A stretch of 32,914 bases of DNA from a virus: the IMG/VR virus record IMGVR_UViG_3300031539_003248, positions 1 through 32,914 of that record, one strand, 5' to 3'. Each line of letters starts with the position of its first letter. Within the stretch, counting starts at the first letter, position 1. Shown piece by piece: positions 18,201 to 32,914 of this stretch. The notes below the pieces were generated by a model that worked only from the letters and a program-made list of their open reading frames with translations, searched no databases and had not been told where the DNA came from. A program made the translations under genes and the position numbers.

Positions 18201-18599
18201 AGATTATATTATTCGGGTGTTGCTGAGCTTCCAAGCTCTACAATCGCTTTAATTAATACTTTAGGAGCCAAAGCAATACTTACTTTAGAATATGCAGATG
18301 CTAATTATATTAGAACTAATCTACAAGCTGAACTTGCTACAAGAGCAGCATTAGCTTCTGATGTTAATAAAATTCTAATTGCCAGTGGTGCCGGAACTAC
18401 AACTTATACAATAAATGATCCATTTACCAATGGTGATGTAGTTGAATTTGTCAATGTAGGAACTGGTAATTTAGTTTTTGCTGCAGGAACAGGAACTCTA
18501 AATGCTCCTGAAGGAGTTATATTAGGGCCAAATAGAGTTGCTACTTTAATGAAAAGAACATTTAATTCACAGTATTATTTATTTGGAGAAGTAACTTAA
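15291..18599 (+). CDS. Large tail/head fibre with two CBM-like domains
   Basis: This 1102-residue beta-rich protein appears to be modular. The N-terminal ~110 residues are probably the virion anchor. Residues ~246-394 and ~574-740 each end in a pattern typical of carbohydrate-binding jelly rolls (strands ending FFLDKIRIISG and VNFDNIELVTG), and the two resemble each other. Residues ~800-945 are Gly/Ala-rich short repeats (AVFGARAEASFNHAS, FSFGVNNRLWG, AAFGRNHDFDLVGGF), suggesting a trimeric stalk or beta-roll such as in YadA-type heads. The C-terminal ~100 residues form a small beta domain that could trimerise or bind receptor. It overlaps the next gene by one base. Most likely a host-surface-glycan adhesin; no enzymatic motif was found. 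Confidence 0.8.
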   Translation: MANIDLTTGIFPIAQLPADAKAYAITLAELTTLGAADFKAFYYYEGLIVFCVENQLRYQWREELTVGETGGLVGASYTYPANAIANGIDYSGRTFNFFLYQITAAEVSDFQENVTNNINVVRNSSYVNIHLDEDVMLDGDAVLVDIVTREFWVRADSYIINSTPYSATAAQHFLDPFPGVGDKRYDIFFADINGVVGVIKGLEAPIPVFPTLNPDEQIQITFVELDENGFVGISEELVYDENLGFSSEYAVTENTAGARFDLASPNDPQSNAVSIEATNTIDGDLLTFTAENITSVIGISSLYMRLKLKEAGLAVFRIRFWNGTTLVGGLRLALRPQHGFDRDNITDHQIINIPVTDIRFRGPEFTHFTIVCNALGIANTHLGFFLDKIRIISGADGIGAAGTSTWLGLTDVFETSYAGRAGWGKAVNAAQTGWNFERFPLFSDLFSSTQNINGGVIPLTNISIYDFQIWSSLYRIANVTYPQAPFLGEVRGDVTISVADATLDRFVVFYIENNGVDAPTVGFVEGAAAVNPLIPFDQLDLSIQVLIGTVRVTSLAGATPGPDVIVTSIYAEALGEPPEWDYVNGIAGSDIADTTIAYAGTKSILIPAGSPVGILKFNTAFPIKYISTGRLNWAVKLDTPMASGGSQGPGGTATVWKISLRDSTISTNTLHAIPFTLANAGLDLNNTTDWQLLSLSLDNYNIDALHPNFNIDEVWFEFLNTPKVNFDNIELVTGLNISGGVVPEYTLSPVSGNKFSLLRNGVPVPNEVTLISSTGLEAINEGNGIGWRLIGKDPLNYGNIGLGAIDFAENYAPSAVFGARAEASFNHASDTIIDPAAYGAVSFGYLNVIGTNGNPSWDGVWGVALGQQITLQDYAMFSFGVNNRLWGDPVSGSGYSAAFGRNHDFDLVGGFVAGLALIGQGVGVTVLGQANVDFNGNTNIPNEAGKLQMVIGNGTLNAGSLTASVRSDSWRLYYSGVAELPSSTIALINTLGAKAILTLEYADANYIRTNLQAELATRAALASDVNKILIASGAGTTTYTINDPFTNGDVVEFVNVGTGNLVFAAGTGTLNAPEGVILGPNRVATLMKRTFNSQYYLFGEVT

Positions 18600-19636
18600 T
18601 GAAAATAAGAGAGAAAATATTCAAGACAAGATTGCCTGATCCTAATTCTTTTGTGGGTGGTGTTGGTATTGCTTTAAACACAAGAGCATTATTAAGAGCT
18701 CAATTAGCTTCAGCAGGTGCAACATTAAGAACAACACAAATGAAAAATTTTAGAAATGATGGACCTAATAATGAATGTTCTTTTTTTATAAGAGATCAAT
18801 ATCCAAGAATGGGATATACAGCATCGTTTATTTCTAATCCAAACTTAACATATTTAGTAGATGAAGGTGGTCATATAAAAGCCATAAATCAAGGTGCTTT
18901 TAATGGCGCATCAAATTTTCAAAGAATACATTTTCCTGGTGTTACCGGTTTATTAAGTCCAAGTGGATATTTTACATTAAATGGTACTGGAATAAAAGGA
19001 TGGGTTTCTTTACCTAAATTGACTGGTCAAGAATCTCATATGAATCATATATTCAATGGTTCTAAAGTAACAACTTTTTATATGCCTTTGCTTACACGAA
19101 TAGCTTTACAATTAGCTTCAAGAACTAATTTCGCAAATATAACAACTCTTAAAAGGGTTTATATGCCTATTTGTCAAACATTAAGCTCATTAACTTCTTC
19201 AGATATATTCCTTAACGTTCCTGCCGGAACTATAATGTATTTAGATCCATTTTTAGCAACCAATAATGGTGGTGGTCGTGATGCTCATGTTGTTTATTGG
19301 GAAGATACGCGAGCTGCTGTAATAAGATATGTAGATGATTTAACTGCAGCTAATCCTGTAGTTGATTTAGCTTCAGCTAATATTACCGTTAATTCAGTAG
19401 ATCTTACTTTCACTCCACCAGCTCCTAATGTAAATGGAAATGATTTTTATGAAGTATGGATCGATGATGGAGTTTCAAGGTGGATGAAATATGTTTCATG
19501 GCAAGAAGTAACAGGATCCGGGCAAACAGTAACAGGTCTTGCTTCAGCTACTAATTATGATATCAAAATAAGAAATGTAGATACCTTACATAATTATTCT
19601 ACCTTTAGCAATATTATTAATTTTACAACACTTTAA
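18599..19636 (+). CDS. Adhesin with LRR-like region and C-terminal fibronectin-III domain
   Basis: The 345 residues have a short basic start, then a central region (~90-235) with repeated AINQGAFNGASNFQRIHFP- and LTRIALQLASRTN-type segments resembling BspA-type leucine-rich repeats (LRR_5). A C-terminal fibronectin type III domain (~250-345) shows SVDLTFTPPAP, then DFYEVWIDD, then TGLASATNYDIKIRNVDTL. Both modules commonly mediate protein or glycan binding on Bacteroidota cell surfaces and on their phages. It overlaps the upstream fibre gene by one base and is followed after one base by a small gene. It is probably part of the fibre or its tip. There is no signal peptide, as expected for a virion protein assembled in the cytoplasm. 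Confidence 0.76.
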   Translation: MKIREKIFKTRLPDPNSFVGGVGIALNTRALLRAQLASAGATLRTTQMKNFRNDGPNNECSFFIRDQYPRMGYTASFISNPNLTYLVDEGGHIKAINQGAFNGASNFQRIHFPGVTGLLSPSGYFTLNGTGIKGWVSLPKLTGQESHMNHIFNGSKVTTFYMPLLTRIALQLASRTNFANITTLKRVYMPICQTLSSLTSSDIFLNVPAGTIMYLDPFLATNNGGGRDAHVVYWEDTRAAVIRYVDDLTAANPVVDLASANITVNSVDLTFTPPAPNVNGNDFYEVWIDDGVSRWMKYVSWQEVTGSGQTVTGLASATNYDIKIRNVDTLHNYSTFSNIINFTTL

Positions 19637-19895: not shown

Positions 19896-20348
19896 ATGAG
19901 TAAAGGAAATGCTTTCGAAAATCAACTCCTGTTATTATTGTTCAACAATACTGCAATTGCAAATATTGGTGATGCAGGGGGAATAAGAGATTCTGTAACA
20001 CCAGGATCATTTTGGGTAAGATTGTACACAGATGCCGTAGTGGTTGATGATGCTACAATTGGAACTGAAACCTCTTATACTGGCTATGTTGCGTTTGGTG
20101 TAGCAGTAGCAAGATCGGCTGGTGGATGGACCGTAGCCGGGAACAATGCTTCTAATACAGCTGCAATCACATTTGGCGCTTGTACAGTAGGAACTCCTAA
20201 TCTTCGTTATTTTGCTATCTTTAGGGATGGTGCAACAGCGACAGATGCGTTCAGAGTCTATTGGGGCCAATTGACTGCAGATTTAGCTGTAAGTCCTGGA
20301 ATCACTCCAGAATTTGCTATTGGTGCTTTAGACGTAAACGAGGACTAA
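19896..20348 (+). CDS. Small virion-type protein, single-gene unit
   Basis: The 150 residues begin SKGNAFENQLLLLLFNNTAI and continue with a beta sandwich: PGSFWVRLYTD, then SYTGYVAFGVAVARSAGGWT, then AITFGACTVG and YFAIFRDG. This order of strands recurs in small phage structural proteins (Gp80-like / tail-fibre or decoration proteins). It has its own candidate promoter upstream and a hairpin terminator 26 bases downstream, so it may be made separately and in large amounts, as with a decoration or fibre-accessory protein. The family match is from memory of the pattern. Confidence 0.72.
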   Translation: MSKGNAFENQLLLLLFNNTAIANIGDAGGIRDSVTPGSFWVRLYTDAVVVDDATIGTETSYTGYVAFGVAVARSAGGWTVAGNNASNTAAITFGACTVGTPNLRYFAIFRDGATATDAFRVYWGQLTADLAVSPGITPEFAIGALDVNED

Positions 20349-20422: not shown

Positions 20423-20701
20423 GTGCCTAAACAATGCCATAGAAATCTTGAAGATCATTGTTGCCATTTAGTAGATTCTAAAGGCAAAGGATATCAATGT
20501 CCTTTACTTGAAAAAAGTACGGAAGAAGGTTTCAAATGGACTTGTGGTATTAGAAAAGAATTAGGTAGTTGGGATTTGGTTCACAATGATCCACGCTACA
20601 TAGAACTTGTACAACCTTTTTGGGATGCTCATGGTCCGAGAATAAAACAATATAATTGTGGAGATTACACTTGTGAAAACTGTATAGATGGCAACGCTTA
20701 A
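20423..20701 (+). CDS. Cys-rich 92-residue protein, GTG start
   Basis: The only workable start is GTG at 20423; the nearby ATG (20434) is in another frame and stops at once. Eight cysteines lie at the two ends: CHRNLEDHCC and YQCPLL at the front, WTCGIRKELG in the middle, and YNCGDYTCENC at the end. The closing C-x4-C-x2-C and the front CHx7CC suggest metal binding (zinc or Fe-S) or disulfides, with a central Trp/Tyr/Pro-rich helix (VQPFWDAHGPRI). It overlaps the giant fibre gene by 14 bases. Small Cys-rich proteins of this kind occur before fibre genes in some phages, but I know of no function. Confidence 0.72.
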   Translation: MPKQCHRNLEDHCCHLVDSKGKGYQCPLLEKSTEEGFKWTCGIRKELGSWDLVHNDPRYIELVQPFWDAHGPRIKQYNCGDYTCENCIDGNA

Positions 20702-23700
20702 TACTTTATTAGTTAATGGTAATTCGGTTAATGGTACTCGTAATTGGAATACTAATCAGAGCTATCTTAATATTGACGAAGCTATTGGCAGTGCGGATGC
20801 AAATGCTATTATCGATAATACGAATGCCAATAGCATACAAGTATCTTCTTATTTACTTTCCAACACAAGTTCTCTTTTTATAAGCATGACAACCTGTTCA
20901 TGGCAGATACGTCGTCGTGTAAGTGGGGCTCAAACAGATGTAAGGATATTAGGCGTAAGAATTGTAACAGAAGCGGCAGGAGTTGTTCTTGCAGCCTTAA
21001 ATTCAGGCGGTGCTTTTCAAATAGTCGGTACTATAACCAATACTACTTTTGCTAATGGTTCAGTAACAGCTTTTACTTATGTCAATACTTCAGCTACAAA
21101 AGCACAATGGGATGATGCTCGAATAGAGTTCCAAAATGATGTTACCAAAGTACATGGTGGCGATTCCAATGGAATGCAGATTGATACCGTTGAAATCACA
21201 GGAACTTTTGTTTCAGCTAATTCTCCAATATTAGGTGTTAGTAATGGAGCTGCTACCACTGTTGGTGTTCTTACCGCTAAAGGATCTTTGGTAGGTGTAT
21301 CAAATGGTGTAGAAACCACTGTTGGTGTTCTTACCGCTAAAGGAGCATTGGTTGGAGTAATCAATGGTGTTGCAACAGTCGATGGTGAAATCATAAATGT
21401 TGGCGGACAAATAGCAGGCGCTATAAATGGAGCCGCTACAGTAAACGGAGCGCTTACAGCCAAAGGAGAGCTCGCTGGTGTTATTAATGGTATTGCCACA
21501 GTCGATGGAAATTTAATTGCAGCTGTATCACTTATTGATGGAATAATTAATGGTATTGCGACTGTTCAAGGACAAATGACAGCTAAAATATTAGCTTCTG
21601 CAACCGTTAATGGCGTTGCAACTACTTCTGGTACTTTAGCTGCAAAAGGGAATTTATCTGGTGATGGAGGTGCTATAGCTGGCGAAACCCTATGGAAAGA
21701 AGGTGCTGTTGCAAATTTAGATAATTTTCTAAATGATGTAAGAACACGAAATGGACAAAGATTTTTTGGTTCTGGTTTAAGCGGAGTTATTAAGAGAATA
21801 GAAGTAGATTTAGCCATAGGTATTGGATCTCCTGATGGAGTAATAAATATGCAAATATGGTCATTAAATGGTTCTGATTTTCCTCTTGCTATTTTAGAAA
21901 CTTCTACCAATTCTTATAATATGATAGATATAACATCTTCAAAATCTACATATTCATTTGAATTCACATCCCAATTTTATAGTCAAAAATTAGCGTTTAT
22001 TATTAATGAATCAACAATATCAAGTAATAATAATAGTCTTTTTATTTCAATTGAACTTAATGGTACTGATATACCTAATGAATCAAATATTTATTTTCAA
22101 GGTGGTTGGTTTGATCAAAGTAATTCAGATCTTGTTTATAAAATATATAATAATATTGGCTCTGGTGGTTCTACTCTTCAAGGAAATTTAACAGGAAAGG
22201 GAGCTTTAGTTGGTATTATATCTGGACAGGCCATAGTAGATGGTATCTTGACTAATGGAATCACTATTGGAACATTGGCTGGTGTAAGTAATGGTGTCGC
22301 TACTGTTGAAGGTGTTTTAAGCGGAAAAGGCCTTATGACTTCTTCAGGCGAAAGTATTATTAGACAAGTTGCTAATACAGGAAGCTTCATTACTTTAGAT
22401 ACTTCGACAATAAGAGGTGGTAACAGAATAACAGAAGTCTTTTCTGGTGTTATTAAAAGAATAGAAGTTCAATTAAGAGCTGTTTCAGGTGGTTCTCCAG
22501 ATGGTGTTCTAAATATGCAAATATGGTCATTAGATGGAGCTAATATACCTTTAGCTGTTTTAGAAACCTCTACAAATTCTATAAATCAAAACACATTAGG
22601 AAATTCGGGCGTTTTTGAACTTCATTCTTTTGATTTTACAAGTCAATCTTATAATGAAAAAATTGCTATAATAGTTAATCAATCAACTGTTACTACTGTT
22701 GATTCTGTTCAGGTGCGACAGACAGGAGCAAATATATTCCCTAATGAAAATCAAAACTTTTATAATGGTAGTTGGGGTAATAATGCAACATTTGATTTAA
22801 CATACACTATTTATAATAATCAAGGTAGTCAATCAGGTAAAGCTACAGTAACAGGAGCTTTAACTATTGCAAACAGTCAGATATCTGGATTAAGCAACGG
22901 TGTTGCAACTGTAACAGGAGCTTTAACAGCAAAAGGAGCATTAACTGGAACTATTAATGGTTTAGCTACTACAGATGGAAATTTAACGACTGTTGGTGGA
23001 GCAAGTCAAATATCCGGAGTAATTGATGGTGTAGCTACTACTGCAGGTATATTAACAGCCCTTGGTATTCTTCAAGGAGTTATTAATGCAGCAGCTACGG
23101 TTGATGGTATAGCTTCAGCCAGAGGAGATTTACTTGGAGAAATTAATGGTATAGCTACAGTTCAAGGAACATTATCTGCAAAAGGTTCACTTGCTGGAGC
23201 AATAAACGTCGTGCCAATAATATCTGGTATTCTTACAGGAAAAGGAGAATTAGCAAGTGTTATCAATGCAATTGCTACAATACAAGGTATTCTTACTTCA
23301 GATGCAATGTTTGGAGTTTCTAATGGTTCTGCTACAGTTTCAGGTACATTAACCGGCAAAGGAAACCTTGCAGGAACAATAAATGCTATAGCTACAATTC
23401 AAGGTGTTTTAATAGCTAAAGGAATCCTTCAGGGAGCTTCTAATGGAGTTTCTACTACTGCAGGTATTCTTACAGCTATCGGACAATTACAAGGTGTAAT
23501 TAATGCTTTAGCAACTGTAGATGGCACATTAACTTCAGATGCAATGTTTGGAGTTTCTAACGGTGTAGCCACTGTTTCAGGTACTCTTACAGCTAAAGGA
23601 GCCCTCGCTGGTGTAATTAATGGTATAGCTACTGTTGATGGTATCTTAACTTCTGATCAACTTGTAGGCGTAATTAATGCTATTGCTATAGTTACCGGTA

Positions 23701-25937
23701 TTCTAACTGGTAAAGGAGCATTATTAGGCACTATCAATGGTATAGCTACTGTTGATGGCATCTTAACTTCCGATCAACTTGTAGGTGAATCAAATGGTGT
23801 TGCTACGGTATCTGGTACTCTTACCGCTAAAGGAGATCTTCAAGGAATTATAAATGCACTTGCTACTATACAAGGTCTTTTAATAGGTCAGGCACTTCTT
23901 CAGGGAACGTCTAATGGCGTTTCTACAGTTTCCGGTACACTAACAGCTATTGGACAATTACAAGGTATAATTAACGGTTTAGCAGTCGTTCAAGGCGTAA
24001 TGATTAATGATGATTTAGCCGGGATAATTAATGGACAAGCTACAGTTAGTGGAACACTTACAGCTAAAGGAAATTTAGAAGGAACAATAAATGCATTAGC
24101 TACTATTCTTGGAAGTCTAACTGGTCGTGGTGAACTTACTGGAATCATAAATGGATTAGCTACAGTTCAAGGTGATCTTAAATCTCCTGCAGATTTAATA
24201 GGAATTATAAATGGATTAGCTATTGTAACTGGTGTTCTATCTGGTCGTGGTGAACTTGCTGGAGTTTCCGAGCCAATTCCGGACAATGTTGATTTAGCAC
24301 AAGGTAGTCTTATAGCTAAATTTTTTACTGATGATGAATCTTATGGAGAAACAATAGATCCTAAAGGTCGAGGCGTTCAGTACATTGATTTTTACATGGG
24401 TAAAATTGGTGCTCCAGATTTCGAAATGAGAGGCGAGATATGGAGTATGTCCGGTGGACTTCCAGATACTTTATTACAAATTTCAAATAATACCATTGAA
24501 GCCACTACCGTTCCAACCGGTCCTACTTATCAAAGATTCACATTTGATGTTATTCAAAACTTCAATCAAGAAATTGCTATTGTAGTTCATATCATTAATC
24601 ATACTGTAGGCGATGAATCAAATTATATAGAAAGATATTACGGTGATTCAAATCACTTTAAGAAAGGACAAATTGTATATAATTTTACTGGAGCTGCATG
24701 GTCAACAGAGCCAGAACAAGATATTAATGGTGTAATTCAATTAAAGAAATTTACCCAAATAGTAGGAACATCTTATGGTATTGCTAATGGTAATGCTACC
24801 ATTTTAGGTTCGTTAACCGCTAAAGGATCTTTATCTGGAACAGTTAATGGACAAGCTACTGTATTAGGAATTTTAAACAGTAAACTATTTGGAGTTTCTA
24901 ATGGTGTAGCAACCGTATCTGGAACGCTTACAGCAAAAGGATCTCTCGAAGGAATTATTAATGCCTCGGCAATAGTACAAGGATTATTAAATGCAAAAGG
25001 AAATCTTGAAGGAATTGTTAACGCTGCAGCTACAGTACAAGGAATTCTAAATGCATTAGGATCTCTTGAAGGACAATCCAATGGAATTGCAACAGTACAA
25101 GGAAATTTAACAGGTAAAGGAGTTTTGTCTGGAGTTATTAATGCTCTTGCTATAATTACAGCAACCTTAACAGGTAAAGGAAATCTTGCAGGAACTATCA
25201 ACGGTCAAGCAACTGTCGAAGGAATTTTATTAGATGCTAATTTAAGTCTTTTATCATCTATTGTAGATGGATTTGCAACTGTAACAGGAACGCTAACCGG
25301 TAAAGGATCACTTGTAGGAGAATCAAATCCTATTGTTGAGGTAACTGGAGATTTAACTCAAAGTGAAGCTCTGGCCGGTATCATAAATGCTTTTGCTACC
25401 GTAACCGGTACTCTTACTGGTGGTGGCGGAACACTTAAAGGAGAAGCTAATGGATATTCTGAAGTTCTTGGAATTCTTAAAGCCAAAGGAAAACTTGAAG
25501 GAGTAATCAATGCTATAGCAACTTTACAAGGAGTACTCAATGGAGATTCAATGTATGGTATTGCTTATGGTGTAGCTACTGTTATAGGATCTCTTGGATA
25601 TAAAATTGATATGTATGGAGAAGTTTATGGTGTAGCTACTGTAACCGGAACTTTAACAGATAAAAAAGATGTTATCTATGGAGTTTCTAATGGTTCTGCT
25701 TTAGTAATCGGAACTCTAACAGCGAAAGGAAATCTTGCCGGAGTTATTAATGGTAGAGCCTTCTTAGCTGGTATTATGGGAGATAACCCTGAACCTAAAG
25801 ATTGTTCATATACCATCACTTACAATAAAAATCCTAAATTTGTAGTAATACATAATGAAAACGAAAAAATTATTGTAACATATAATAAGAACTCAAAAAT
25901 TATCATAACTTTTAATTGTAAAGAAGAAATATCATGA
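20688..25937 (+). CDS. Giant repeat fibre with three jelly-roll-like insert domains
   Basis: This 1749-residue protein is the largest complete gene here. Residues 1-180 form a beta-rich N-terminal domain, probably the virion anchor or a lectin-like fold. From ~181 to ~1700 it consists of about 50 copies of a 19-20 residue unit with consensus LxGxINGxATVxGxLTAKGx. Copies fall in four blocks of roughly 7, 2-3, 24 and 17. Between blocks sit three domains of ~160 residues: ~326-491, ~553-713 and ~1193-1359. The first two are close paralogues sharing SGVIKRIEV and NMQIWSL; the third is diverged (EIWSMSGGLPDTLL, then QEIAIVVHI). All resemble jelly rolls. The last ~45 residues repeat short strands (YTITYNKN, IIVTYNKN, IIITFN). 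No enzyme motif was seen. It is likely a long surface adhesin; such Gly-rich repeats also occur in other phage structural proteins. Confidence 0.88.
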   Translation: MATLNTLLVNGNSVNGTRNWNTNQSYLNIDEAIGSADANAIIDNTNANSIQVSSYLLSNTSSLFISMTTCSWQIRRRVSGAQTDVRILGVRIVTEAAGVVLAALNSGGAFQIVGTITNTTFANGSVTAFTYVNTSATKAQWDDARIEFQNDVTKVHGGDSNGMQIDTVEITGTFVSANSPILGVSNGAATTVGVLTAKGSLVGVSNGVETTVGVLTAKGALVGVINGVATVDGEIINVGGQIAGAINGAATVNGALTAKGELAGVINGIATVDGNLIAAVSLIDGIINGIATVQGQMTAKILASATVNGVATTSGTLAAKGNLSGDGGAIAGETLWKEGAVANLDNFLNDVRTRNGQRFFGSGLSGVIKRIEVDLAIGIGSPDGVINMQIWSLNGSDFPLAILETSTNSYNMIDITSSKSTYSFEFTSQFYSQKLAFIINESTISSNNNSLFISIELNGTDIPNESNIYFQGGWFDQSNSDLVYKIYNNIGSGGSTLQGNLTGKGALVGIISGQAIVDGILTNGITIGTLAGVSNGVATVEGVLSGKGLMTSSGESIIRQVANTGSFITLDTSTIRGGNRITEVFSGVIKRIEVQLRAVSGGSPDGVLNMQIWSLDGANIPLAVLETSTNSINQNTLGNSGVFELHSFDFTSQSYNEKIAIIVNQSTVTTVDSVQVRQTGANIFPNENQNFYNGSWGNNATFDLTYTIYNNQGSQSGKATVTGALTIANSQISGLSNGVATVTGALTAKGALTGTINGLATTDGNLTTVGGASQISGVIDGVATTAGILTALGILQGVINAAATVDGIASARGDLLGEINGIATVQGTLSAKGSLAGAINVVPIISGILTGKGELASVINAIATIQGILTSDAMFGVSNGSATVSGTLTGKGNLAGTINAIATIQGVLIAKGILQGASNGVSTTAGILTAIGQLQGVINALATVDGTLTSDAMFGVSNGVATVSGTLTAKGALAGVINGIATVDGILTSDQLVGVINAIAIVTGILTGKGALLGTINGIATVDGILTSDQLVGESNGVATVSGTLTAKGDLQGIINALATIQGLLIGQALLQGTSNGVSTVSGTLTAIGQLQGIINGLAVVQGVMINDDLAGIINGQATVSGTLTAKGNLEGTINALATILGSLTGRGELTGIINGLATVQGDLKSPADLIGIINGLAIVTGVLSGRGELAGVSEPIPDNVDLAQGSLIAKFFTDDESYGETIDPKGRGVQYIDFYMGKIGAPDFEMRGEIWSMSGGLPDTLLQISNNTIEATTVPTGPTYQRFTFDVIQNFNQEIAIVVHIINHTVGDESNYIERYYGDSNHFKKGQIVYNFTGAAWSTEPEQDINGVIQLKKFTQIVGTSYGIANGNATILGSLTAKGSLSGTVNGQATVLGILNSKLFGVSNGVATVSGTLTAKGSLEGIINASAIVQGLLNAKGNLEGIVNAAATVQGILNALGSLEGQSNGIATVQGNLTGKGVLSGVINALAIITATLTGKGNLAGTINGQATVEGILLDANLSLLSSIVDGFATVTGTLTGKGSLVGESNPIVEVTGDLTQSEALAGIINAFATVTGTLTGGGGTLKGEANGYSEVLGILKAKGKLEGVINAIATLQGVLNGDSMYGIAYGVATVIGSLGYKIDMYGEVYGVATVTGTLTDKKDVIYGVSNGSALVIGTLTAKGNLAGVINGRAFLAGIMGDNPEPKDCSYTITYNKNPKFVVIHNENEKIIVTYNKNSKIIITFNCKEEIS
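21230..25790 (+). repeat. Coding ~60-bp tandem repeat array (four blocks)
   Basis: In-frame repeats of 57-60 bp encode the fibre unit. Blocks lie at about 21230-21662, 22163-22344, 22830-24264 and 24767-25790, interrupted by the insert domains. Most copies have drifted, but some are nearly identical: a 30-base exact match repeats at 21255-21284 and 21315-21344 (period 60), the motif around 23295 recurs near 23532, and the one around 23644 recurs near 23761. Distances of 60, 117 and 237 bases are whole numbers of codons. This points to expansion by slippage or recombination, with selection to keep frame. Confidence 0.9.
21846..22577 (+). repeat. DNA-level duplication of jelly-roll core
   Basis: The segment from 21846 (AATATGCAAATATGGTCATT) in insert domain 1 recurs from ~22513 in domain 2 with few changes over ~65 bases, including the stretch that codes LETSTNS. 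The surrounding domains also align at protein level. This marks a duplication of about 160 codons together with flanking repeat units. Confidence 0.75.
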
Positions 25938-26302
25938 ATCAAATAATAGAACGAAAAATCGGAGATAGTAAAGATTTGGATTTTACATTAGATCTTACTA
26001 ATTATTATGGAAAGGTTGGAGCTGATATAACAGACATATTTTTTACTATCAAAAAACAAAAAAGTGATGCTGATAATTCTTTATTTTTAAAGAAAGCTTC
26101 TGCAGGTCAGATAACTTATAATGGACAAGAGATAGTAAATGTATTGGTTAAATGGCCTTATAATGAATACTCACAATTTCAAGCAAAGAAACAATATGTA
26201 GCCGGAGTATATCCTAAATTTTCAGGAGATATTATTGCGGATGAAAATGTTGATATAGAATTTGATCTTATATTTTTAGATGATACTTTAAAACAAAACT
26301 AA
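25934..26302 (+). CDS. Small beta-sandwich structural protein (BppU-N / Ig-like)
   Basis: The 122 residues overlap the giant fibre stop by four bases (ATGA). The strand pattern is IIERKIGDSKDLDFTLDL, then VGADITDIFFTIKKQKSD, then IVNVLVKWPYNEY, then QYVAGVYPKFSGD. It fits the small Ig-like domains at the N-terminus of baseplate/fibre proteins (BppU/DUF2479 style) that bridge fibre and virion. Directly after the fibre gene it may be a fibre collar or adaptor. This is a structural analogy by eye. Confidence 0.66.
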   Translation: MNQIIERKIGDSKDLDFTLDLTNYYGKVGADITDIFFTIKKQKSDADNSLFLKKASAGQITYNGQEIVNVLVKWPYNEYSQFQAKKQYVAGVYPKFSGDIIADENVDIEFDLIFLDDTLKQN

Positions 26303-26303
26303 G

Positions 26304-27302
26304 ATGCCAACAGCAATAACACATTTTAAATTTCCAACTCTACCAGATCCTAATGCTGTAGATTCGCTAATCAATGCGGTTCCTATTGTTGTAGATACAT
26401 TATACCCTATTGCTGATCAAAATCTTGTATCGTTTGAAAGAAAGTCTGACTTTGATAATTTATCATTATTTGCTCCTTTAACTTATAAGGTTAGAGATAA
26501 TGTTAATAACTTCGAAAGTAATTCTGCTTTAATTAATTTAAAATGGAAGGGAGTAGCTGTAAATCCGGCAAGTTCTAATGTTCTACAAGTTATTAACAAT
26601 TTAGATGTTATTAACATGTTATCAATGCTTCCATTGAATGATGTAACAGAATGGATAGAGATTCAATCCATGACTGGACTTCAAGGATTAATTAGTAGAT
26701 CAAAGAAAACATTCATAGGTCAAAGGTTAACCATACTGGATTTATATTATACTGACTTTACAGCTCTGGCTGAAGGCGGTGGAGATCCTTATTTTCAATT
26801 AGGTTATAAAGTTGGTGAAGCTAATACAGCACAAGCTACAGTATATACTTTAGATTTAGATATTGTTTCTCTTGCCATCTTACAACAAATACCAGTTTCA
26901 ACAGAAACCTTTTTAGAAGAATTTGATCCCGGTGGTGGACCACTGGTAACATATACTGTTAAAGAACAAACCATAGATATTGAAGTTAGTTTAGGATATG
27001 TCTTTGGCAATGCTGCAATAAACGTTAGTATGGCTTGCCCTTTCTTTCTTTTAAATCCTTGGAATTCAGTTACGGTTTCTTATGAATCAAATGATGATAT
27101 AGAATATTTTGTAGATACTCCTTTAAATATAACTTTAAATTTAGATAAAGAAGGCAAAGCAAAAATAACAATAATCAATAAAGCTGTTAAAGTAACTCCT
27201 GATCCAGCAACAGGAATTATAACTTTTACATTAAACAATATTAATGGAAATCCTGCTTTAGTAAATAATCCACAAATAGTTCAAGTATTAATAAATTTAT
27301 AA
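26304..27302 (+). CDS. Unknown 332-residue probable virion protein
   Basis: This protein mixes beta and helical stretches, has no cleavable signal, and shows few charged clusters. The N-terminal ~25 residues (THFKFPTLPDPN) resemble the start of fibre-associated proteins; DPN also appears near the start of the LRR/FN3 adhesin (RLPDPNSF). The middle holds helix-forming VINNLDVINMLSMLPLNDV, and the C-terminal ~90 residues are a beta domain (NITLNLDKEGKAKITIIN). It has the tight spacing of the structural operon: one base after the upstream stop and a one-base overlap with the next gene. The function is unknown; a tail or fibre accessory is most likely. Confidence 0.7.
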   Translation: MPTAITHFKFPTLPDPNAVDSLINAVPIVVDTLYPIADQNLVSFERKSDFDNLSLFAPLTYKVRDNVNNFESNSALINLKWKGVAVNPASSNVLQVINNLDVINMLSMLPLNDVTEWIEIQSMTGLQGLISRSKKTFIGQRLTILDLYYTDFTALAEGGGDPYFQLGYKVGEANTAQATVYTLDLDIVSLAILQQIPVSTETFLEEFDPGGGPLVTYTVKEQTIDIEVSLGYVFGNAAINVSMACPFFLLNPWNSVTVSYESNDDIEYFVDTPLNITLNLDKEGKAKITIINKAVKVTPDPATGIITFTLNNINGNPALVNNPQIVQVLINL

Positions 27303-28164: not shown

Positions 28165-28749
28165 ATGAGCAACGTTAGACAATTTACAGATAAAGAACTT
28201 TTAGAAAAAGTTAAATCTATTGGTGGAACTATTCCTAATACTGGAAAGTATTTGATTATTGGAGTACAGTCATTAGAAGATGAATTTAATGTATTCGATG
28301 ATAAATTTTATGTTTATGATGGATCTCATTTTATAATGGCTTCATCCGGAACTACTAATTGCGGAAAGACAGCTCTACAAAATTTTGATGATTATAAATT
28401 AGAAGGTGCTGCAGTATGGAAAACAAATCAATTTATAAAAGACTGTTATATTCCAGGGCTTCATAAACAAAAAATGAAAGCACTTCGTCAAAATAAGCCT
28501 ATCTATTTTTATAGAGATACTGATAAAGATGAAAAAGCTGAAGAACAAGGAAAGCTTTATTATGATATCATATATGCTAATATGCATGGTGTGGATTATG
28601 ATCCATTTAGTGAGGTTATAAAACAAAATATAAATGGTTGGTCATTTGCTTGTCAAGTGTGGAATCGTATGAGTGATTACAAATTAATGATTAAGGCTAC
28701 ATGGGCTCGAAATAAGCCAGTAGATTATGCATTATTAAAAGAATGGTAA
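28165..28749 (+). CDS. Candidate lysin with L,D-transpeptidase-like motif
   Basis: The 194 residues include NMHGVDYD (His141-Gly142) and later NGWSFACQVWNR (Ser160, Cys163). A His-Gly followed ~18-20 residues on by S-x-x-C matches the catalytic layout of YkuD/L,D-transpeptidase folds (HG...S-x-GC), with Ala in place of Gly before Cys. Further patterns (ASSGTTNCGKTAL at ~59-71, GLHKQKMKAL at ~98-107, YFYRDTDKD at ~114-122) recur in a family of phage proteins in Bacteroidota. If correct, it acts on peptidoglycan peptides as a lysin or cell-wall modifier. There is no signal peptide, so release would depend on a holin. It lies within the run of small membrane genes, which supports a lysis role. 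An unrelated cysteine hydrolase is an alternative. Confidence 0.55.
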   Translation: MSNVRQFTDKELLEKVKSIGGTIPNTGKYLIIGVQSLEDEFNVFDDKFYVYDGSHFIMASSGTTNCGKTALQNFDDYKLEGAAVWKTNQFIKDCYIPGLHKQKMKALRQNKPIYFYRDTDKDEKAEEQGKLYYDIIYANMHGVDYDPFSEVIKQNINGWSFACQVWNRMSDYKLMIKATWARNKPVDYALLKEW

Positions 28750-28750
28750 A

Positions 28751-28933
28751 ATGGTAAAACATAGCAAAGAATTTATAAGGCTCAAAGAAACTCTGGCTGA
28801 AAAAAGGGATGCTGCTATGTTGGGTAATGCTTATCATGATTTGTTTAAATATGGAAAACGCCCAAGTGTTTTAAAAGTTCAAATGTGGGTTAAAGAATAT
28901 CGTCAAAGAGAAGATTGTCAAAAAAAAGACTAA
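28751..28933 (+). CDS. Unknown 60-residue basic helical protein
   Basis: The start is one base after the lysin stop and the stop overlaps the next ATG (TAATG), giving strong operon spacing. The protein is basic and helical (SKEFIRLKETLAEKRDAAML, then VLKVQMWVKEYRQREDC), with no membrane segment. It could be a small lysis regulator. No family is recognised. Confidence 0.62.
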   Translation: MVKHSKEFIRLKETLAEKRDAAMLGNAYHDLFKYGKRPSVLKVQMWVKEYRQREDCQKKD

Positions 28934-29286
28934 TGAATAAGAACATTATAATAACGATTTTAATTATAATATTACTGGCCGGTGGTGTTTTTTGGTTTTT
29001 AAATGATGGAAAATATAAAGAACAAATCAAAGAATTAGAAAATGAAAGAGAATTATTAAAAATGAATGAAGCTAAACTTGAATATCAAAAAGACAGTTTA
29101 AAAAATTTAGAACCGGAAATAAAATGGAGAACTCGTAAGACAGAAGAAAAATTAAAAACTCAACAAAATGAAACAGATGCAATTCCTGGTATCGTTGCTA
29201 CTTACACTAATAGTAAGCTCGACAGCATACTCTCAAATCACCGGCATAAGCCGAGAACAAAAAGTAGAGATAGTATCAACGATTGA
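28933..29286 (+). CDS. Inner-membrane spanin-like protein
   Basis: I prefer ATG 28933, which overlaps the previous stop as TAATG, over a TTG 18 bases upstream. The 117 residues have an N-terminal membrane segment (IIITILIIILLAGGVFWFL, ~5-23) and then a long coiled coil (YKEQIKELENERELLKMNEA, and on), ending in a basic tail. This is the layout of an inner-membrane spanin (Rz type), which fuses the membranes in the last step of lysis. The next gene begins inside its last third in another frame. Confidence 0.72.
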   Translation: MNKNIIITILIIILLAGGVFWFLNDGKYKEQIKELENERELLKMNEAKLEYQKDSLKNLEPEIKWRTRKTEEKLKTQQNETDAIPGIVATYTNSKLDSILSNHRHKPRTKSRDSIND

Positions 29287-29539
29287 AAGTTATGATGCTG
29301 TTCTTATTGAGATTGATTTAACCGAACAGTTATTAAGTCAAGCGAGAGAAATGAATATTTTATTAAGAAAACAATTATCTCTTAGTGATGAATTGAATTT
29401 AAATCTTAAAGCTCAAATAGAAACTTTTGAAAAGCAAACCGAACTTCAAAATAAAGAGCTTAAAAAAGTTAAGCTTAAAGGACTTGCAACAGGTGGCGCT
29501 GGAATTTTAGCTGTAGTACTGATGTTAATACTTAAATGA
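29168..29539 (+). CDS. Exported coiled-coil protein nested over the spanin-like gene
   Basis: The 123-residue frame starts at ATG 29168 and overlaps the upstream gene by 119 bases in another frame, an Rz/Rz1-like arrangement. A typical signal peptide (MKQMQFLVSLLLTLIVSSTA, then YS) lacks a lipobox Cys, so it should be cut by signal peptidase I. A coiled coil follows (~45-100), and the C-terminus is hydrophobic (LATGGAGILAVVLMLILK), likely a membrane anchor. Classical outer-membrane spanins are lipoproteins, so this would be an unusual partner, closer to a unimolecular type without the lipid. Gene order and overlap still support a lysis role. Confidence 0.72.
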   Translation: MKQMQFLVSLLLTLIVSSTAYSQITGISREQKVEIVSTIESYDAVLIEIDLTEQLLSQAREMNILLRKQLSLSDELNLNLKAQIETFEKQTELQNKELKKVKLKGLATGGAGILAVVLMLILK

Positions 29540-29540
29540 A

Positions 29541-32500
29541 ATGATAAATTTTAGAAAAGTAAGAAGTTTAGAAGGTGGTCTGTCCACAGATCTTACTGAT
29601 AACATAGAAAGAAGTAATAGTTATCAAAAAGCTATTGGTGGTAGGCTCTGGTCAAAGAATGGGGTTATGTCATTTTCAGGTGGTAAGGGATCTAAATTAG
29701 TTTATCAAAATACCGATATCGTAAAATATTTAGGTTATTATTCATTTAAAGATGAAGTTATACTCTTTGCAAAATGTATCAAAGGAGCTACATTAGGTGG
29801 TAGTGTTGTAACTGTTTGCAATACTAATTTAGTAGCCAATTCTTTTAATTTAGCTGATGATGCAAATAATAATGTTGCACAATTTATTACTACAGAAATA
29901 ACAGATAATACTTCTATTGTTGAAGATTGTTATGATGTAGAAACTCCTGCAGTTAATCCGGGAGCTTTCAATACTGATTTTTCTTGTGATGATACCGGTG
30001 TTCCGACGACAATAGATTTTGGAGAATATTATGATGAAAACGCTAATGTTCCAAATCAATTGACTTGTAGTTTAAATACTAATCAAATACCTTTAAACAA
30101 TGTTGATTATAATGATTGTATTTATAGTTTAAAATTAGATAGCAATTTTAATCTTCAAGGAACGCTTCTATGGGTAGGCACACAAAATTGGCCTCTTAAT
30201 GGAAAGATAACTACAGAAGGTGTTGATGAAAATGAATTTTATAAACGAGTTTATTATACTGATGCTATCAATCCTAAAAGGGTTGTAAACATTAAAGATC
30301 CTTCTCTTGGATATCGTATAGCAAGTGATTTCAATCAAACTTTAAATAATATTTTATTACAACCTGAAATTATTGCAGTAGGTCCTGGTGGACAATTGAA
30401 AGCCATGAAAGCTTTATATGTTTATAGAGTTATTTCTGCTAATGGACAATTAAGTGAATTTTCGCCTTCTTCATTTTATGCTGATGTTTTAGTTGAAACT
30501 ACAGCTATTAAATATCGAGGTGGTGATATAAGTGAATTAACAAACAGTAAAGTTACAGTACACTGTAATATAATAAATTATGATTCTACTTCAGAAATAG
30601 AATGTATTGCATTAGAATACGAAGCTGAAGGACCGCCAACAGCTATAAGAAATTTAGGAAGAAAAACCTCAAATAGCGTAGTGCAATTTGAACATTTTGG
30701 TAATGAGCCTGAATTTTCTGATAATATTTCATATAGTGATATCATAGATTTCAAAAACTCTTGGAAGTTCTGTAATGACTTTACTTCTAAAAAGAATAAA
30801 CTTATAGCCGGTGGATTAAGAAATCAACCTTTACCTACTGAGATCAATAATTTAGAATATTTATTTCCTTTACATAGTTGGAAAGATGATGGCAGTACTC
30901 ATGATTGCTTAATGAATCCAGAGCCTTGGAATTATCGTTATATAGATCCTTCGAATACTGATGAATTAATTTATGTCAAAGAAAAGATTTATAGAACGAT
31001 ATCTTCATTTGGACCTCTTACATTAAAATTTAAAAACATCGATGTTGCTAATGAAATAGAAATAATATTTTCTAATTTAACATTAGAATCTTACACAAAT
31101 ATAACCGGATTGGTTATTGCTTGGCTTATAGATCAAAAAGCTAACAATATAAATTTTGATACATATTTTCCAAATTTATCTATTGTAAATGCACAAGGTC
31201 AATTACTACTTACTCCCACTGTTCCGGGCACTCCTACCGATATGGCTAATTATGTGTTTGAGTCTGACAATAGCCAGTTTATAGAAAACTTTGATAATAA
31301 CCTCGTATTCTTACCTATAACAGTGAATTTAAACAATCTGGTGTTTGGAGCTCAGTCTATAGGATTTAATCAAGGAACAGGCATTAGAGTAACTTATAGA
31401 GAGTTTAAAGAGCCTTTGCTTAATCAAGCAACTGCAGTTTATGATGGCACTGGTAAACTATTGGATTATTATACTCCTTCAGGTGAGAAATATTGTTTCA
31501 AGGGAGAGATTTATAGATTAGGTTTTCAAGCTTATAACAATGATTCCACAAGATTCTTTGCTATTCCTATTGGTGATGTGATGATTCCCAATCTTGGAGA
31601 TCTAAAATCAACTATTGATGATTCCGGTAATGCTATTATAACAAGTCAAAAATATGTAAATCAAAGTGTAGAGAATGGTGTTCTTTATGGACATGGTATT
31701 AAAATGCATATCGAAGTTCGTTTATCGTGTGATTTACAAAATTTAATTCCTATGTATCAAATGGTTTATGTAGAACGTACAGAAGATAACAGGACTATCA
31801 TATGCCAGGGAATTTCAGCACCATTAAACAGAGTTCAAGATAATGGTAAAGATGCTCATAGGATGCCTGATAAAGTAAGAAACAAATGGAACATGCCTTA
31901 TTATGGTGGACCAACTTATGAATCAAATGGTTTTGAAAATTATGATCAATATGGAGAAAACAATCAATATACTGGTGATAAAGATCCAAGACGAATAATG
32001 ACTCACAGAAGATTAATGTATTTTGATTCTCCTGATTTATATTTTAATAAAGTTTCCAATCAATTCATTAAAAATTCCAAAATGAATATTGTTGGAAAAT
32101 TAAATACTGATCACACTCCGGAAGTTATAAGAGAACATGGTGGTAATTTTGGTGGTGGATTTTTCACTTATAATAGCGGTAATGAAATATATCCTAAATT
32201 TTCAAGAAAGATATTAGAAGGTGAAATTGATGGTGATACTCATGTTGATGATTTACCAAGACGAGCTGTAGAAGAAGATCTGTCAGGAACTTTTGAAAGT
32301 TATTTTTATAACATTTCTGTATTTGCCAATTTCACACCACACAATGATCAATTAGATATAGAATTAACTGAAGAATTATTATATGGAGAAGAAATTTCTG
32401 GTTCTGCTTTTAATTTAGAGAATAGTGTTTCCAATAATACTTTTGGTTTATCCGTACAACCCTGGTATTATTCCGGATATGCGAGAAAATGGGAATATAG

Positions 32501-32914
32501 AAATAATCAAGCTGATGGAGCTAAAAACACTTTTTTCAATGGAGCAATGACTTCTCCGGCCTATAAAACTATAATTATTAAAACTTCAGTAGATCTATTT
32601 ACAGATGCTTTTGTAGGAAATCTTCTTCCAACAATCAATACACATGCAAGGCTTGGCGGAAGTACTTATGGTAAATGTTATGATACCTTTCCATTAATTA
32701 ATCTTTTTAGAAATAATAGAGAATCTATTTATGGTGGAAGAAGTGTTGAGGCTTATAGTCAGAATACTTACATACCATTAAGTAGAACTATTCCAACACT
32801 TAAATCAAGTAATAATTCTCAAATATTTGATGTTGGAGCTGATACTTATGTTACACTAAATATTAGAACAAAAAACGATTGGGGTGATGATGAAATTGAA
32901 TTTAGAGATTATCG
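29541..32914 (+). CDS. Muzzle/tail-tip structural protein, N-terminal part (runs off window)
   Basis: ATG 29541 is one base after the upstream stop, and the frame stays open to the end: at least 1124 residues. The N-terminus (VRSLEGGLSTDLTDNIERSN, then AIGGRLW and GVMSFSGGKGSK) fits the opening of the large muzzle/stabilisation proteins of crAss-like and related Bacteroidota phages: an F/L-x-GG motif, then Asp-Leu, then Asn/Gly and a Gly-rich strand. These form the distal tail and often exceed 1000 residues. The rest is beta-rich with Asn/Asp-rich loops and Tyr-Gly-rich stretches near 31900 (WNMPYYGGPTYESNGFENYD). The C-terminus and total length are outside the window. The assignment is by pattern and size. 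Confidence 0.75.
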   Translation, partial: MINFRKVRSLEGGLSTDLTDNIERSNSYQKAIGGRLWSKNGVMSFSGGKGSKLVYQNTDIVKYLGYYSFKDEVILFAKCIKGATLGGSVVTVCNTNLVANSFNLADDANNNVAQFITTEITDNTSIVEDCYDVETPAVNPGAFNTDFSCDDTGVPTTIDFGEYYDENANVPNQLTCSLNTNQIPLNNVDYNDCIYSLKLDSNFNLQGTLLWVGTQNWPLNGKITTEGVDENEFYKRVYYTDAINPKRVVNIKDPSLGYRIASDFNQTLNNILLQPEIIAVGPGGQLKAMKALYVYRVISANGQLSEFSPSSFYADVLVETTAIKYRGGDISELTNSKVTVHCNIINYDSTSEIECIALEYEAEGPPTAIRNLGRKTSNSVVQFEHFGNEPEFSDNISYSDIIDFKNSWKFCNDFTSKKNKLIAGGLRNQPLPTEINNLEYLFPLHSWKDDGSTHDCLMNPEPWNYRYIDPSNTDELIYVKEKIYRTISSFGPLTLKFKNIDVANEIEIIFSNLTLESYTNITGLVIAWLIDQKANNINFDTYFPNLSIVNAQGQLLLTPTVPGTPTDMANYVFESDNSQFIENFDNNLVFLPITVNLNNLVFGAQSIGFNQGTGIRVTYREFKEPLLNQATAVYDGTGKLLDYYTPSGEKYCFKGEIYRLGFQAYNNDSTRFFAIPIGDVMIPNLGDLKSTIDDSGNAIITSQKYVNQSVENGVLYGHGIKMHIEVRLSCDLQNLIPMYQMVYVERTEDNRTIICQGISAPLNRVQDNGKDAHRMPDKVRNKWNMPYYGGPTYESNGFENYDQYGENNQYTGDKDPRRIMTHRRLMYFDSPDLYFNKVSNQFIKNSKMNIVGKLNTDHTPEVIREHGGNFGGGFFTYNSGNEIYPKFSRKILEGEIDGDTHVDDLPRRAVEEDLSGTFESYFYNISVFANFTPHNDQLDIELTEELLYGEEISGSAFNLENSVSNNTFGLSVQPWYYSGYARKWEYRNNQADGAKNTFFNGAMTSPAYKTIIIKTSVDLFTDAFVGNLLPTINTHARLGGSTYGKCYDTFPLINLFRNNRESIYGGRSVEAYSQNTYIPLSRTIPTLKSSNNSQIFDVGADTYVTLNIRTKNDWGDDEIEFRDY

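Follow-up and report, generated by a model that had tools for sequence, protein, structure and literature searches.

The tail fibres of podophage GP4 reportedly include the fiber I protein Gp80 (PF23140) and the fiber-tail adaptor Gp77 (PF23148), and are said to be described by Zheng et al. 2023 in J Mol Biol. Fibres in which repeats and binding domains are combined are already known, as are BACON-repeat proteins in crAss-like phages. The latter are tail-associated proteins with tandem Ig-like domains, of which a crAssphage ORF has eight (PMC6949934). The window, which is the whole stretch of 32,914 nt analysed here, is a 32.9-kb viral fragment with GroEL, TerL, portal, MCP and muzzle genes. 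One of its ORFs encodes a long array of 20-residue units interrupted by larger domains (Table 1). The ORF of this crAss-like podophage probably encodes a tail (adsorption) fibre in which exchangeable lectin-like jelly-roll domains are set in a beta-repeat stalk. The analysis shows the repeat, the domain homology, the genomic position, the module linkage, the recurrence and the swapping; we infer the location in the virion, the solenoid fold, the glycan binding and the polarity of the fibre.

Table 1. Position of the repeat fibre, its parts and neighbouring genes in the window
Feature	Position	Strand	Basis and remarks
345-aa tail gene, weak fn3 similarity at its end	18599..19636	+	G015 homologue has 4 repeat units
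Gp80-like gene (PF23140, podophage GP4 fiber I protein)	19896..20348	+	Pfam; linked upstream of the repeat fibre
Repeat fibre ORF, 1749 aa	20688..25937	+	ATG start; ORF calling
N-terminal domain, residues 1-181	20688..21230	+	Weak CBM60 similarity; AF2 pLDDT <50 over most
Repeat block 1, 7 units (residues 182-323)	21231..21656	+	Unit profile; AF2 pLDDT 72-81 over most, solenoid-like
Interspersed domain 1	21663..22148	+	Domain-family alignment
Repeat block 2, 3 units (residues 488-550)	22149..22337	+	Unit profile
Interspersed domain 2, predicted jelly-roll beta-sandwich	22338..22820	+	AF2 core pLDDT ~70-88
Repeat block 3, 23 units and a partial one (residues 712-1190)	22821..24257	+	Unit profile; AF2 pLDDT ~50, first part
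Interspersed domain 3	24258..24773	+	Domain-family alignment; 63% identical to a G015 fibre domain
Repeat block 4, 16 units and a partial one (residues 1363-1703)	24774..25796	+	Unit profile
C-terminal tail, ~10-residue repeats between two Cys	25797..25934	+	Common to crAss-like relatives
122-aa gene directly 3' of the fibre, position of fibre-tail adaptor	25934..26302	+	Retained in fibre-bearing crAss-like phages
Conserved 332-aa gene at the end of the variable fibre cassette	26304..27302	+	Comparison of relatives
crAss muzzle protein (PF25731), truncated at the end of the window	29541..32914	+	Pfam

Repeat units and interspersed domains

With a 20-position profile, 49 units scoring at least 12 bits were found in the ORF, in good agreement with the approximately 50 copies of the preliminary description, while 100 residue-shuffled copies gave at most one unit each (mean 0.04) at the same threshold. 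The commonest spacing between units is 20 residues (31 times), followed by 19 (six) and 21 (five). Self-identity at lag 20 is 0.205 compared with 0.083 after shuffling, 18.8 standard deviations above. The computed consensus, xGx[IS]NGxATVxGxLTAKGxL, also corresponds to the LxGxINGxATVxGxLTAKGx given before. Units 2, 4, 6 or 8 apart are slightly more alike than adjacent ones (0.48 versus 0.44), hinting at a two-unit superrepeat in the window blocks. The reverse-strand ORFs across the fibre gene arise as shadows of the repeat.

The units are arranged in four blocks split by three domains, as had been described with domains of about 160 residues; the separators are approximately 160, 160 and 170 aa long and belong to one family. 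Domains 1 and 2 share 46% identity (alignment A1) and domain 3 is more distant; the matches found for domains 1 and 2 are only 27-35% identical. When the PDB was searched with profiles of the domain family and of the repeats, chance matches alone came up. A supposed likeness of the three domains to the NCBI 'choice-of-anchor' domains had no support in NCBIfam.

In addition to what had been described, the ORF starts with a domain of about 181 aa and ends in a tail flanked by Cys. The CBM60 match of the N-terminal domain (20.7 bits) is below the Pfam gathering cut-off of 28.2, and a homologue of the domain is present in another fibre linked to a Gp80-like gene (L237). The C-terminal tail with its pair of flanking Cys can be made out in the window and in the crAss-like fibres of G015, G016 and L206, while the N-terminal regions vary among these phages. 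The C-terminus may therefore be the anchor of the fibre in crAss-like phages. In non-crAss phages (L022, L027, L040 and L217) the array is followed at the C-terminus by a different 10-residue repeat, e.g. GDSTITLTLS GDSTITATLT.

Genomic context and occurrence in other phages

Judged by its gene sequences, the window genome is that of a crAss-like podophage. The muzzle protein matches PF25731 above the cut-off (E 6.5e-31), the portal matches Bacteroides crAss phages with approximately 24% identity, and both TerL and portal are recognised by PHROGs. The sole annotated match of the MCP is the major head protein of Azobacteroides phage ProJPt-Bp1. A GroEL gene (859-2553) lies beside the packaging genes, and is present in those crAss-like relatives whose DNA reaches there.

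Relatives whose MCP is 73-78% identical conserve the stretch of genes from TerL to 15289 as well as the muzzle gene; most of them also have the gene at 26304, and other proteins lie between these flanks in place of the fibre region. The repeat fibre and the Gp80-like gene are absent in the six MCP-relative records covering the whole region, which represent about four lineages because some are near-duplicates. The first 14 MCP relatives, some of them short fragments, are likewise without the repeat fibre. Since the flanks are kept and the content is replaced, the fibre appears to be part of an exchangeable host-recognition cassette. The earlier assignment as a fibre gene is supported by this position, between virion genes and muzzle, beside a gene like that of GP4 fibre I and within a swapped cassette.

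Immediately upstream of the fibre there is a 92-aa Cys-rich ORF (20423-20701) that overlaps the fibre start by 14 nt and has no family match; G015 and G016 have a different protein of 185-193 aa at this position. Between fibre and muzzle, overlapping ORFs at 28915-29539, both with a hydrophobic segment at the N-terminus, look like a spanin pair, and the gene at 28165-28749 is 78-80% identical in G015 and G016. Together they suggest a lysis cassette.

The same fibre was found in further crAss-like phages. G015 and G016, with TerL 42% and 70% identical to that of the window, have repeat fibres in the same gene context and Gp80-like genes 75-77% identical to the window gene. Two further fibres at the same place (L206/L207 and L208/L209) come from phages with an MCP approximately 46% identical. 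The number of domains of the interspersed family varies, with about six in G015 and none detected in L206 or in G016, the fibre of which is truncated by the end of its contig. The G015 fibre (L197:3100-3500, ~58148) has one in-frame TAA inside a jelly-roll domain, directly after which the frame continues for 1729 aa; this may be a real nonsense change or an assembly error. The G015 homologue of the gene at 18599 (L196:14421-16526) is twice as long, with an extra N-terminal domain and four repeat units, and the repeat thus occurs in a second tail gene too.

The 20-residue repeat is not covered by any Pfam, PHROG or NCBIfam family, and nothing on it was found in the open-access literature, which that search covered. 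A tblastn search with the whole fibre protein against 50,697 phage records gave nothing at 1e-5 and BLAST queries with the repeat only gave nothing useful, possibly because of low-complexity masking of the repeat. Scans of viral contigs with exact peptides of domain 1 and block 3, and with the 1102-aa neighbour, gave no relatives. A degenerate DNA motif of the unit, first checked on the window and then scanned over viral and bacterial DNA, gave 68 viral and 102 bacterial stretches. Among these, approximately 21 viral loci and no bacterial one have true 20-residue arrays. Several of the array proteins are split by other domains of 120-540 aa; those of L022 and L040 include Laminin_G_3, and those of L027 and L078 start with Gly_rich_2. 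The different inserts indicate that the plan of a repeat stalk with interspersed domains recurs. The architecture had been called unrecognised, which is true of the curated libraries and does not hold for uncultured phages, many of which have it with other inserts.

The arrays are linked to Gp80-like genes, the role of which is taken solely from the Pfam name ('Podophage GP4 fiber I protein gp80'). The window gene matches PF23140 with 34.6 bits (cut-off 27); antibody-chain matches of Gp80 were taken as chance. A Gp80-like gene lies upstream on the same side in 11 of the 12 motif-found array loci with at least 600 nt of upstream sequence, whereas of 48 viral loci that match the motif but have no array, one has such a gene (Fisher p 4e-10). 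With the window, G015 and G016 added, it is upstream of the fibre in 14 of 15. The sole exception, L057, has a Gp80-like gene on the same contig (L265), and so has the contig of L032 (L215). The gap to the fibre is mostly below 600 nt, with 4.8 kb in L024 and 1.8 kb in L064. A survey anchored on Gp80, which had a motif-free start and comprised 64 viral loci with at least 1.5 kb downstream, gave arrays by profile in 13 loci; in 32, the self-identity of a downstream ORF peaks at lag 20 or 40. Among all ORFs around Gp80, a peak at lag 20, 40 or 60 occurs in 50 of 363 downstream ORFs, compared with two of 407 (lag 40) in the upstream control. As some loci are near-duplicates, not all of these counts are independent.

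The gene 3' of the repeat fibre often encodes a small, beta-rich-looking protein. It is the GP4 fiber-tail adaptor Gp77 in L280 (PF23148, E 5e-30) and matches BppU_N in L057. The 122-aa gene of the window matches neither PF23148 nor BppU_N, and profile comparison with the downstream genes of other phages did not support homology. With no PF23148 match beside its fibre, the window is therefore not counted as a member of the GP4 module. In the cultured Microcystis phage Mae-JY04, which has a named host, a Gp80-like gene, a 625-aa repeat protein (WWT39678.1) and a Gp77-like gene stand in a row, and the repeat protein has a 20-residue periodicity (z 8.4 over residues 231-560). As far as the sequences go, the module is made up of a Gp80-like fibre protein, a repeat fibre and a small protein in the adaptor position.

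Predicted fold and alternative readings

AlphaFold2 (AF2) was run on residues 1-330 and 531-895 of the window ORF as monomers with small alignments. In the first model the repeats (approximately residues 180-320) have pLDDT 72-81 and a regular pattern of a short and a long strand every 20 residues, and in the second they have pLDDT of about 50 and are again solenoid-like. The solved structures nearest to the block 1 model are parallel beta-helices and beta-solenoids (Z up to 16.8), with the tail fibres of phages 7-7-1 and Kp7 among the best matches. AF2 has a known bias towards confident solenoids for near-perfect repeats (PMC11795689), but the window units are diverged (mean pairwise identity approximately 46%) and have uncharged hydrophobic columns (10, 14 and 20) and an uncharged Gly column (12), so the fold may be real. 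The likeliest fold is a parallel beta-solenoid in which each unit forms roughly one coil. Of the proposed beta-roll or solenoid stalk, the beta-rich nature of the repeats is supported; the solenoid itself is a prediction, with pLDDT of 72-81 in one model and about 50 in the other. The term 'giant' describes the sequence and not necessarily the particle: at the usual rise of approximately 0.48 nm per coil, 50 coils would be no longer than about 24 nm, provided that the solenoid holds.

The model of domain 2 resembles the phi812 baseplate protein (Z 7.3), the Douge central fibre/baseplate protein (7.0) and CBM4, CBM6, CBM22 and CBM29 (5-6). Three jelly rolls had been proposed, and this is supported by the predicted fold of domain 2 and by the homology of domains 1 and 3 to it.

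A tentative alternative with some weight is that the ORF forms an extended trimeric fibre, with a beta-prism or triple beta-helix shaft instead of a single-chain solenoid. Phage shafts are often trimeric and crAss001 gp22 is a trimer (PMC10172136), the low pLDDT of one monomer model would agree with this, and the conserved Gly spacing also fits tight interchain packing. The other monomer model, with its higher pLDDT and regular strands, resembles single-chain solenoids and argues against it. With a trimeric shaft the fibre would be much longer and would have three copies of each domain per level. That the repeats are a flexible or partly disordered spacer, merely setting the distance between the binding domains, is highly improbable. 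The Gly content of 19%, the low complexity and the solenoid bias of AF2 would allow it, but the hydrophobic columns are strict and similar in 278 units of other phages, Pro is rare (0.3%), charged residues are few, and beta strands, not disordered linkers, are predicted in both AF2 models.

The ORF could also encode a head (capsid) fibre or a decoration protein. crAss001 has head fibres as well (PMC10172136), and one Gp80-like protein weakly matches a PHROG annotated as head protein. The gene nevertheless lies in the cassette between virion genes and muzzle and adjoins genes for a fibre-I-like protein and, in L280, a fiber-tail adaptor, and Gp77-like genes are found among minor tail genes in annotated phages, which makes a location on the head very unlikely.

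Proposed function and comparison with known systems

In the preferred reading as a tail fibre, the tandem units would build the beta-repeat stalk, with the parallel beta-solenoid as its likeliest form, and the CBM/lectin-like jelly rolls between the coils are predicted to bind host surface glycans. Attachment at many points, as had been suggested, would be a further possibility. The stalk would tolerate gain, loss and exchange of units and of inserted domains, and such exchange would let the phage change receptor specificity. Modular receptor specificity would have a natural example in a stalk that takes up varied domains in unrelated phages, and Mae-JY04 is a cultured counterpart where this is testable. 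A wider and rather unlikely version is that the repeat is a phage-wide 'pegboard' scaffold for different binding or enzyme domains, and that in crAss-like phages the Cys-flanked C-terminal tail is held to the virion by the product of the next gene and the variable N-terminal domain faces outward, contrary to the polarity usual for fibres. As the repeat is common beside Gp80 in many phages that are not related to each other, and absent from the libraries searched, many adsorption fibres have probably been left as 'hypothetical protein'. They can be looked for once the repeat and the adjoining Gp80 gene have been named.

Compared with the GP4 fibres, the window has a Gp80-like gene adjoining its fibre, and in L280 and Mae-JY04 the repeat protein lies between Gp80-like and Gp77-like genes; the repeat protein itself, however, matches no GP4 family model and the downstream gene of the window is not Gp77. 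With the BACON proteins the fibre has in common the crAss-like genome, the neighbourhood of tail genes, the tandem beta repeats and the proposed binding to the host surface (PMC6949934), but its units are 20 residues long with about 50 copies, and no Pfam match to BACON domains was found in it up to E 10. The beta-solenoid or beta-helix adhesins and fibres (Cthe_2159, tapirins, HxuA and FHA; 7-7-1 and Kp7) have the same fold as the AF2 model (Z 11-17), a resemblance of fold only, with approximately 8-16% identity to the block model. Domain 2 in turn has the predicted fold of CBM4, CBM6, CBM22 and CBM29 and of the phi812 and Douge baseplate-fibre domains (Z 5-7), but it has no sequence family match. 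Against these systems, what appears to be new is the repeat family with its wide occurrence, the linkage to Gp80 and the variety of domains that are inserted into it.
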